This document shows, in pieces, positions 1-47,010 of a stretch of 64,000 nt of DNA. Source of the stretch: Myxococcales bacterium (GTDB lineage Bacteria > Myxococcota_A > Polyangia > Polyangiales > Houyiibacteriaceae); the NCBI GenBank assembly GCA_029861865.1, contig JAOTYL010000016.1:1-64000 (forward strand), written 5' to 3'. Under the pieces are notes generated by a model. That model saw nothing but the letters and a program-made list of their open reading frames with translations, did not search any database and was not told the DNA's origin. The position numbers and the translations under genes are program-made. Within the stretch, counting starts at the first letter, position 1. Every line of letters begins with the position of its first letter.

Positions 1-9
1 GCCATTGCG

Positions 10-175
10 AGTGCCAGTGCCAGTGCCAGTGCCAGTGCCAGTGCCAGTGCCAGTGCCAGTGCCAGTGCCAGTGCCAGTGCCAGTGCCAGTGCCAGTGCCA
101 GTGCCAGTGCCAGTGTCAGTGTCAGTGTCAGTGTCAGTGTCAGTGTCAGTGTCTGTGTCAGTGTCTGGGGAATGG
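10..175. repeat. Hexamer tandem array 1 (CAGTGC/CAGTGT units)
   Basis: Tandem six-base units, mainly CAGTGC and then CAGTGT, run almost without interruption from near the left window edge. The stop codon of the minus-strand glycosyltransferase gene (TGA, complement of 158-160) lies inside the array, so the repeat supplies the end of that protein. The open frame on the plus strand (Val-Pro and Val-Ser repeats) is a by-product of the array and not a gene. Confidence 0.95.
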
Positions 176-25312: not shown

Positions 25313-25319
25313 CTGGCTC

Positions 25320-25383
25320 TGCGTCGACCGGTAACTCGGACCCCGGCGCGGGACGGGCGTGCTCGCAATGGGGCCCCTCGGAA
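25320..25383 (+). repeat. Conserved flank of hexamer array (copy A)
   Basis: The sequence CGTCGACCGGT, then CTCGG, CGCGG, GGGACGGGCG and GAACAGTG, in order and with gaps, also occurs before the array at 46891, and its first part occurs again near 48870. It marks these arrays as copies of one dispersed element. Confidence 0.6.
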
Positions 25384-25490
25384 CAGTGTCAGTGCCAGTG
25401 ACAGTGCCAGCGACAGTGTCAGCGACAGTGCCAGTGTCAGCGGCAGTGCCAGCGCCAGTGTCCGTGATGCTGTCAGCACCAGTGCCAGTG
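25384..25490. repeat. Hexamer tandem array 3 (CAG[T/C]GN)
   Basis: About 17 units of CAGTGN or CAGCGN with a variable sixth base. It has the same orientation as the array at 26334. The two flank the convergent four-helix-bundle gene pair. Confidence 0.95.
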
Positions 25491-25510
25491 TGATCTATCT
25501 TGGATCATCG

Positions 25511-25586
25511 TGATTTCCTTTCCGAGGGCCTTGGACCCCGGGCTTCGCCCTTCTGCGAGGGCCCAAGGCCCTCGGAAAGGAAATCA
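25511..25586 (+). promoter_or_regulatory. Long RNA hairpin sequestering the ribosome-binding site of four-helix-bundle gene 1
   Basis: Two perfect 24-base inverted arms (25511-25534 and 25563-25586) enclose a 28-base loop. The right arm contains GGAAAGG, the Shine-Dalgarno candidate, and ends four bases before the ATG at 25590. If transcribed from upstream, the message would hide its ribosome-binding site. No promoter is evident inside the hairpin. Confidence 0.85.
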
Positions 25587-25589
25587 CTC

Positions 25590-25916
25590 ATGGGACTCAT
25601 CGTTCAGCAAAAGGCACTCGAGGCCGCGGCGGGGCTTCAGCCTCTTCTTCCGGTCATCAGAAAGGCCGATAGGGATCTGTTCGACCAGGTGCGACGGGCT
25701 ATGAATAGCGTGGTGCTCAACATCGCCGAGGCCGAGGGGAATGACCCGGGAACGGCGAGGGCTCGATTCGCGAGCGCGTGTGGGTCGGCGAAAGAGGTGC
25801 GTGCGGGGCTCCAGCTCGCAGCGGCCTACGGCTACGTCGGCCCGAACCAATGCGCAGAGCTCGACATCGCGCTCGATGAGGTCTGCGCGATGTCGTGGAG
25901 ACTCTCCGGGCGTTAG
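25590..25916 (+). CDS. Four-helix-bundle protein (23S rRNA IVS-protein/S23 family), copy 1
   Basis: A 108-residue all-helical protein. The stretch NSVVLNIAEAEGNDPGTARARF with CGSAKEVRAGLQLA (landmarks NIAEAEG and SAKEVRAGL) is the signature of the four-helix-bundle family found in 23S rRNA intervening sequences and as Avd-like proteins. Its function in free-standing form is unknown; the family is basic and binds nucleic acid. ATG 25590 directly follows the hairpin. The 3' end overlaps the convergent paralogue by four bases. No rRNA and no reverse transcriptase are nearby. Confidence 0.88.
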   Translation: MGLIVQQKALEAAAGLQPLLPVIRKADRDLFDQVRRAMNSVVLNIAEAEGNDPGTARARFASACGSAKEVRAGLQLAAAYGYVGPNQCAELDIALDEVCAMSWRLSGR

Positions 25917-26242
25917 CGTTTGGCCAAACACCACGTGATGGCACACACCTCGTCGAGCCTCCGGTCGAGGTGGGTCGCCGTCTCAGACCCGATGTACCCC
26001 CAGTCACTCGCGATATGAAGCGCGGCGCGGACCTCTTTGGCCGACCCGCAAGCGGTGGAAAACCGGGCCCGCGCATTCCCCGCATCACTCCCCCGAGCCT
26101 CCGCAATATTGAGCACCACACTCTGCGCGGCTCTCTTGAGCTGATCCGCCAGCGCCTTGTCCTGCCTCCGCACCACCCGGAGGAGCGGAGCGACTTCCTG
26201 CACCACCTTGCGGGCTCGAATGTAAACGTTCTCTGATCCCAT
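25913..26242 (-). CDS. Four-helix-bundle protein (23S rRNA IVS-protein/S23 family), copy 2
   Basis: A 109-residue paralogue of the convergent gene; the shared core VVLNIAEA, G-D-G-ARARF, ACGSAKEVRA and LDEVCA aligns without gaps. The start ATG 26242 has AAGGAG seven bases upstream, buried in a hairpin unrelated in sequence to that of copy 1. Tail-to-tail pairing of two paralogues, each with a closed ribosome-binding site, looks like an engineered-by-selection module rather than a chance duplication. Function unknown. Confidence 0.88.
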   Translation of the reverse strand: MGSENVYIRARKVVQEVAPLLRVVRRQDKALADQLKRAAQSVVLNIAEARGSDAGNARARFSTACGSAKEVRAALHIASDWGYIGSETATHLDRRLDEVCAITWCLAKR

Positions 26243-26246
26243 GATT

Positions 26247-26327
26247 GAACTCCTTGTGTTGGGTTTGGGCCCTGTTGGCCTCACCCCGCTGTGGTCAACA
26301 GGGCGCAAACCCAAAAACAAGGAGTCC
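26247..26327 (-). promoter_or_regulatory. Long RNA hairpin sequestering the ribosome-binding site of four-helix-bundle gene 2
   Basis: Imperfect arms of 32 and 33 bases (26247-26278 and 26295-26327) pair with a few mismatches and one bulge around a 16-base loop. AAGGAG lies in the arm proximal to the ATG. The arm sequence (CTCCTTGT, GGGTTTG, CCCTGTTG blocks) is unlike hairpin 1, so structure is conserved and sequence is not. Confidence 0.85.
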
Positions 26328-26333
26328 CTAGGA

Positions 26334-26528
26334 CAGTGCCAGTGACAGCGACAGTGACAGTGACAGCGACAGCGACAGTGACAGCGACAGCGACAGTGAC
26401 AGTGACAGTGACAGTGACAGTGACAGTGCCAGCGCCAGTGCCAGTACCAGTGCCAGCGACAGTGCCAGTGCCAGTGCCAGTGCCAGCGACAGCGACAGTG
26501 CCAGTGTCAGTGCCAGTGCTCGTGCCAG
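26334..26528. repeat. Hexamer tandem array 4 (CAG[T/C]GN)
   Basis: The longest array in the window, about 32 units of CAGTGA, CAGCGA, CAGTGC and variants. It begins right after the hairpin of four-helix-bundle copy 2 and ends 10 bases before the stop of the glycogen synthase-phosphorylase gene. Confidence 0.95.
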
Positions 26529-44525: not shown

Positions 44526-44528
44526 GGA

Positions 44529-44660
44529 CAGTGACAGCGACGGTGTCAGCGACAGTGTCAGTGTCAGTGACAGCGACAGTGCCAGTGTCAGCGACAGTGT
44601 CAGCGACAGTGTCAGCGACAGTGTCAGTGTCAGCGTCGGTGTCAGTGTCAGTGCCAGTGA
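44529..44660. repeat. Hexamer tandem array 5
   Basis: About 22 units of CAGTGA, CAGCGA and CAGTGT between the acyl-CoA synthetase stop and the short-chain dehydrogenase start, in the same orientation as arrays 3 and 4. It ends 15 bases before the next ATG and so lies in the leader of that gene. Confidence 0.95.
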
Positions 44661-45358: not shown

Positions 45359-45433
45359 TGGAGCGGGTGAAGGGATTCGAACCCTCGGCCTCGACCTTGG
45401 GAAGGTCGCACTCTACCACTGAGTTACACCCGC
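45359..45433 (-). tRNA. tRNA-Gly (anticodon CCC)
   Basis: On the minus strand the sequence folds into a complete cloverleaf: acceptor GCGGGTG paired with CACCCGC, D arm around CTCAGTGGTAGAG, anticodon arm CGACC-TTCCCAA-GGTCG with CCC at positions 34-36, short variable loop, and T arm around GGTTCGAATCC. The CCA end is encoded. It abuts the stop codon of the convergent dehydrogenase gene with no spacer. Confidence 0.95.
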
Positions 45434-45483: not shown

Positions 45484-45592
45484 TGCCAGCGCCGCTGGCA
45501 CTGACACTGACACTGACACTGACGCTGACGCTGACGCTGGCACTGACACTGACACTGACGCTGACACTGACGCTGACACTGTCCCTGACTCT
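45484..45592. repeat. Hexamer tandem array 6, inverted orientation
   Basis: Units CACTGA, CGCTGA and CGCTGG, the reverse complement of arrays 3-5, between the tRNA gene and the stop of the SPFH gene (TAG, complement of 45598-45600). The first eight bases are degenerate. Confidence 0.93.
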
Positions 45593-45597
45593 GCCCC

Positions 45598-46836: not shown

Positions 46837-46854
46837 AAACGTCAACCGGTGGCT

Positions 46855-46890
46855 CGGGGCGCGGCGCGGCACGGGACGGGCGCTCGAGAA
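46855..46890 (+). repeat. Conserved flank of hexamer array (copy B)
   Basis: Preceded by CGTCAACCGGT at about 46841 and continuing CTCGG, CGCGG, GGGACGGGCG and GAACAGTG, matching copy A at 25320 in order. Confidence 0.6.
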
Positions 46891-47010
46891 CAGTGACAGT
46901 GACAGTGCCAGCGTCAGTGCCAGTGCCAGTGTCAGCGCCAGTGCCAGTGCCAGTGCCAGTGCCAGTGACAGCGCCAGTGTCAGTGACAGCGTCGGTGTCA
47001 GCGGCAGTGA
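46891..47010. repeat. Hexamer tandem array 7
   Basis: About 20 units of CAGTGA, CAGTGC and CAGCGC, ending two bases before the stop of the carboxyltransferase gene. Same orientation as arrays 3-5. Confidence 0.95.

Follow-up and report, generated by a model that had tools for sequence, protein, structure and literature searches.

Dispersed pairs of convergent S23-family genes with structured leaders inside hexamer arrays of a Myxococcales genome

The 64,000-nucleotide (nt) window analysed in this study (contig JAOTYL010000016.1, positions 1 to 64,000, of the Myxococcales bacterium assembly GCA_029861865.1) contains a module of two convergent genes which, as judged from comparison of its copies, is one copy of a dispersed, multicopy element whose parts are conserved together across the genus. 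The element core of about 0.84 kb, as read from the sequence, is composed of a hairpin, gene A, the convergent gene B and a second hairpin, and lies within arrays of the hexamer CAGTGN. The gene-A-side array (25383..25490, plus strand), detected as tandem repeats with CAGTG on the gene A strand, runs into the left tip of the element (TGTGATCTATCTTGGATCATCG, 25488..25509, plus strand), which was delimited by copy alignment and by the site of copy L038 in the related genome G018. The gene A leader hairpin (25510..25587, plus strand), gene A (25590..25916, plus strand, 108 amino acids), gene B (25913..26242, minus strand, 109 amino acids) and the gene B leader hairpin (26249..26325, minus strand) follow, up to the gene-B-side array (26332..26528, plus strand), likewise a tandem repeat and of the same polarity as the first. 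The two stop codons overlap by 4 nt (TTAG, 25913..25916). These coordinates agree with the order array-hairpin-gene-gene-hairpin-array and the 4-nt overlap given in a preliminary description of the locus. Genes A and B are the sole genes between the arrays, and no transposase is encoded there.

Searches with gene A and gene B revealed seven complete convergent pairs with 87-94% protein identity in the genome of the window (G000; 4.2 Mb in 23 contigs, 100% complete), besides four damaged copies; several copies stop at contig ends and the true copy number may differ. All of them are located within arrays and in one orientation. Both genes are gutted in L047, which retains both hairpins, while gene A is deleted in L045, the left half is missing in L046 and gene B is absent from L044. 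In the latter locus (positions 700-2000), the lone gene A copy is accompanied by the far array and then by an inverted relic of the left hairpin, which suggests that two elements met in one array.

The pair site is intergenic, with a CBS-domain gene on one flank and a glucan phosphorylase-like gene on the other, and the C-terminal part of the latter protein was used to locate the orthologous site in other genomes. G018, the closest relative by this protein (95% identity), carries a short array of about 4 units and no element at this position. The element is also absent from the site in nine other genomes of the same genus with both flanking genes conserved, some of which (G003, G004) have a few CAGTGN units there. 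When the flanks of other copies were used as queries, eight further G000 copy sites proved to be without the element in G018. At the L038 site, G018 has retained CAGTGTGATCTAGCTTGGGTC, a relic of the left tip, with the element otherwise absent; the L038 copy was thus lost there, and absence may therefore reflect loss as well as non-arrival. No S23 match was found anywhere in G018, nor in G004, G005, G008 and G010 of the same genus. The pair is carried by G002, G003, G006, G009, G012-G014, G016 and G017, some copies being cut by contig ends. Nearly all genus pairs examined keep the 4-nt overlap and mostly have hairpins on both genes, exceptions being L126 (G006), where the genes are divergent, and L130, where gene B has no hairpin. 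Seven complete dispersed copies and empty orthologous sites support the earlier suggestion that a selfish element has taken up residence in a repeat array.

Among the G000 copies, the ratio of nonsynonymous to synonymous substitution rates (dN/dS) was 0.14 for gene A and 0.056 for gene B, at a dS of about 0.47, and by these ratios both genes are under purifying selection. Strong selection on copies of this divergence would also be expected if the genes formed a host-domesticated multigene family with a cellular role, for example one related to RNA or the ribosome, with arrays and hairpins as regulatory surroundings; related S23 genes of other families adjoining arrays as well (see below) is in line with this. 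The lack of any S23 gene in the closest relative and in the four other genomes named above, the variation of sites and copy numbers, and the damaged copies argue in the other direction, and we regard a host family as quite improbable.

Both gene products were assigned to the S23/23S_rRNA_IVP family of four-helix-bundle proteins. The PF05635 profile scored 50.3 bits (3.2e-13) for gene A and 64.7 bits (1.1e-17) for gene B, with a cut-off of 33.8, and TIGR02436 scored 49.0 bits (5.8e-13) and 63.5 bits, respectively, with a cut-off of 24. The proteins share 59% identity over 91 amino acids, and the assignment of the two as S23 paralogues in the preliminary description is therefore upheld. The AlphaFold2 model of gene B (predicted local distance difference test score 93.7) consists of four helices, and its best matches in the PDB were the solved S23 proteins 2rld and 2gsc, followed by Avd (4dwl, 8ub7). 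In a tree with few columns and rough support, A and B formed two clades, which points to one duplication before spread, and the copies of G000 and those of G003 each tended to group by genome. Of the pairs of biallelic sites along A and B, 57% were in conflict by the four-gamete criterion, and compatibility between neighbouring sites exceeded that in 1000 permutations; together, these observations point to exchange between copies. L037 and L039 have an irregular array stretch beyond the element in common, yet are non-sisters in the gene A tree.

The left hairpin contains 25 perfect base pairs (bp), followed by a mismatch and more pairs, with 28 of 29 positions paired overall (25510-25538/25559-25587). 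In the right hairpin, between 26249 and 26325, the arms are imperfect and about 35 nt long. RNA folding against dinucleotide shuffles yielded z scores of -7.2 (left) and -5.1 (right), none of 200 shuffles being as good. The Shine-Dalgarno sequence of gene A (AAGGAA, approximately 25577-25582) and that of gene B (AAGGAG, 26255-26250 on the minus strand) are both situated in the inner arm of their hairpin, and the two stems have no extended sequence in common. The earlier claim of unrelated hairpins over both Shine-Dalgarno sequences thus stood, except that the perfect left stem is 25 bp long and not 24. A promoter inside a loop, which would remove one arm from the transcript, found no support, as the element showed no sigma-70-like promoter and its loops span 3-24 nt. 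Rfam returned generic hairpin matches only, all below the gathering scores.

Covariation was assessed by pairing the arms by position from the stem base and by comparison with 300 arm shuffles. For gene A, 94% of positions were paired in 40 distinct leaders, with 235 compensatory cells, compared to a maximum of 78% and 122 cells in the shuffles. The 23 distinct gene B leaders were also 94% paired, with 66 compensatory cells (shuffle maximum 83% and 37 cells). These cells do not equal independent events. The leader stems of the genus are almost wholly different in sequence and pairing is still kept, with the Shine-Dalgarno sequence and its complement varying least in both stems. Covariation above every arm shuffle is consistent with the earlier suggestion of selection drawn from structure conserved without sequence, and supports the preservation of the hairpins by paired changes and selection acting on the structure.

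One-sided mismatches in well-paired stems comprised about 19 A.C events and 2 G.U events (hand count, not phylogeny-independent). As A.C on one strand equals G.U on the other, this excess could also be explained by selection on the opposite-strand RNA or by palindrome repair. Instead of acting primarily as translation locks, the hairpins might accordingly form, in antisense, at the 3' end of the transcript of the convergent partner, or represent palindromes whose perfection is maintained by template-switch repair; template switching is known to target long perfect palindromes. A leader function is favoured by the finding that neither stem has a part less variable than the Shine-Dalgarno sequence and its complement, and most mutations are held by the T/G-rich outer arm, so that an A.C excess can arise because the inner arm, holding the Shine-Dalgarno sequence, is constrained. 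We consider this alternative possible, if on balance unlikely; it concerns the hairpins only and is compatible with a mobile element.

The arrays have a fixed polarity with respect to the element. CAGYG polarity was observed on the gene A side of 37 of 40 leaders, with three unclear and none reversed, and the matching polarity on the gene B side of 25 of 25 leaders, none reversed (some loci counted twice under different locus identifiers). The element ends lie within tandem arrays, which would mask any target-site duplication. Array abundance tracks element presence poorly, as G004, G005 and G008 have arrays and no S23 match; overlapping matches to a five-unit array pattern amounted to 679 in G000, 10 in G018 and 0 in G010.

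A search for a mover gave no consistent candidate. No Y1 transposase was found in G000 or G002 (80% complete). Among the genus genomes examined, a reverse transcriptase was present in G000 (a single one, with no S23 gene nearby) and G014 only; none was found in G013 (100% complete) or G003, each with several copies, or in most copy-bearing genomes of the genus. Both enzymes were rejected as movers, as neither co-occurred consistently with the element. The G000 reverse transcriptase is an open frame of 334 amino acids (L190, G000:C6:2949-3413), and the open frame beside it is presumably relaxase-like, a guess from its sequence. Viral contigs and plasmids held no relatives of the element at the sensitivity used. 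What the element-bearing genomes have in common is S23 genes, hairpins and arrays.

This leads to the question of whether the S23 proteins themselves could be the mobility factor, with the hairpins as end recognition sites and with targeted, orientation-specific insertion into hexamer arrays. No other protein is common to all copies, their orientation is fixed, hairpins at both ends are retained even in the gutted copy, and several element-rich genomes are without transposase or reverse transcriptase. A weak 12-nt inverted motif (ACTTGGTNATCG) is also found outside both hairpins in some copies; considered as a terminal inverted repeat, it was rejected, as it reached significance in no more than about 4 of 12 copies and other copies lack it. 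The element carries stretches of array along with it, as would be expected under homologous recombination, and no nuclease or recombinase activity is known for S23 and Avd proteins. Overall, movement by the S23 proteins appears distinctly unlikely.

Outside the genus, period-6 arrays were located within 600 bp of 17 of 20 S23 loci related to gene B in other genomes of the order (L134-L153); these loci were picked by similarity to gene B, several come from one genome and they are not fully independent. An independent sample of PF05635 genes across the phylum showed such arrays at 6 of 20 loci, compared to 0 of 20 control windows from the same contigs, which were matched to the phylum-wide sample only, while the own distant bins of L134-L153 served as their internal control. 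Pooled array coverage was 15% within 500 bp, 2% at 0.5-1 kb and 1.2% at 1-2.5 kb, with 0.4% in controls. The hexamers differ in sequence among these loci. Long leader hairpins were found in G021 and G054, moderate ones in G036 and G033, and one in L283, while most other S23 genes outside the genus are without a long leader hairpin (survey against simple letter shuffles). The expectation that other family members share the hairpin was thus borne out within the element family and in a small number of other lineages, and failed in many S23 genes outside the genus, which makes the hairpin a trait of the former and not of S23 genes at large. By these surveys, the arrays are the broader association of S23 genes and the hairpins the narrower one. 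The pairing of S23 genes with arrays in other families (17/20 against 0/20, with the matching of controls given above) ties the protein family to repeat arrays of unexplained origin. Convergent S23 pairs were also observed outside the genus in L134 and L136 (G027), L147 (G021) and L149 (G026); they belong to different S23 lineages, and convergent pairing may therefore have arisen more than once.

Taken together, the best reading, which we hold to be reasonably probable, is that of a mobile S23 element resident in arrays, in which the hairpins keep translation from read-through transcripts low, as in IS200 or ISPpu9. In transcripts entering from the flanks, the hairpin would form and mask the Shine-Dalgarno sequence, and each S23 protein would then rarely be made, like the transposases of IS200 and ISPpu9. 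Since neither a transposase nor a reverse transcriptase is consistently found with the element, spread or exchange between arrays would proceed mainly by homologous recombination of array sequences. The S23 proteins may have the nucleic acid of the element itself as their target; this is a guess drawn from the fold relative Avd, which functions as part of an RNA-protein complex. Autoregulation, in which each protein would bind its own RNA hairpin as the preliminary description put forward, is a speculative further possibility. Several points weigh against this reading. With a dS of about 0.47 the G000 copies are old, but most are intact, as they would also be under a host function; A.C mismatches far exceed G.U, the opposite of the prediction for selection on the sense leader RNA alone; the promoter search recognised no native promoter; movement of the element was not seen; and a dedicated mobilising enzyme of another type could have been missed. 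Beyond the array-dwelling element as proposed, it is conceivable but unlikely that it represents a new mobile-element class, common in part of Myxococcota, encoding S23 bundles alone, which would recognise the hairpins of their own genes and either home to hexamer arrays or build them; the flanking arrays would then correspond to long terminal repeats, and solo arrays would be scars. S23 proteins are widespread and without settled function, and the element offers a natural system, in a little-studied part of Myxococcota, to ask what they bind.

Other repeats were noted in the window. In contig C51 of G018, the flank of the copy on contig C10 is fused directly to the homologue of window position ~160 onward; this junction places the C10 copy just before the window start, and the array at 1..163 (plus strand) is therefore most likely its gene-B-side flank. 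Arrays without an S23 gene are present at 1376-1490, 44527-44659, 45495-45593 and 46891-46989, and a tRNA-Gly (CCC) gene (45359-45433) lies just before that at 45495. A palindromic repeat resembling repetitive extragenic palindromic (REP) sequences (GGTGACTCGGACCGCGG...) was detected at 25319-25378 and 46846-46890 and often abuts the gene-A-side array. Both arms occur in L040 and L043 and one arm at the window copy, where half of the repeat (CCGGTAACTCGGACC...GGGGCCCC, 25319..25378) is common to L040, L043, L045 and L046; a shortened form is present at empty sites in G018.

No description of this arrangement was found in the literature searched, which covered few subscription journals, and nothing directly relevant was found on four-helix-bundle proteins with repeats or mobility. 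Insertion sequences share with the element several copies and empty orthologous sites, and differ in having a transposase. ISPpu9 of Pseudomonas putida is present in seven copies inserted in repeats, and in both ISPpu9 and IS200 the ribosome-binding site is sequestered by structure in the mRNA leader, with lower expression as the result (PMC8450116). Multiple copies and a buried ribosome-binding site are thus shared features, in the case of ISPpu9 also the location within repeats; both encode a transposase, unlike the element described here. REP sequences, bacterial interspersed mosaic elements (BIMEs) and miniature inverted-repeat transposable elements (MITEs) are similar in their dispersed palindromes and in the deletion derivative with both hairpins, whereas the present element has intact genes under selection, and G000 has no Y1/RAYT gene. 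Avd of diversity-generating retroelements has the same fold, but genes A and B are not accompanied by a reverse transcriptase, a template or a variable repeat, and the Avd equivalog NF033474 scored 13.2 and 17.1 bits for A and B, far under its cut-off of 80. The intervening sequences (IVSs) of 23S ribosomal RNA (rRNA) genes combine an S23 protein with long complementary arms, forming a 28-bp stem in Coxiella (PMC4990558), and resemble the element in protein family, selfish nature and long stem. The stretch with the pair gave no rRNA match, and the pair is not located inside a 23S rRNA gene; the element differs from the IVSs in lying outside rRNA, in its two convergent genes, in its multiple copies in intergenic arrays, and in having one hairpin for each gene leader, whereas an IVS has one stem around its gene.
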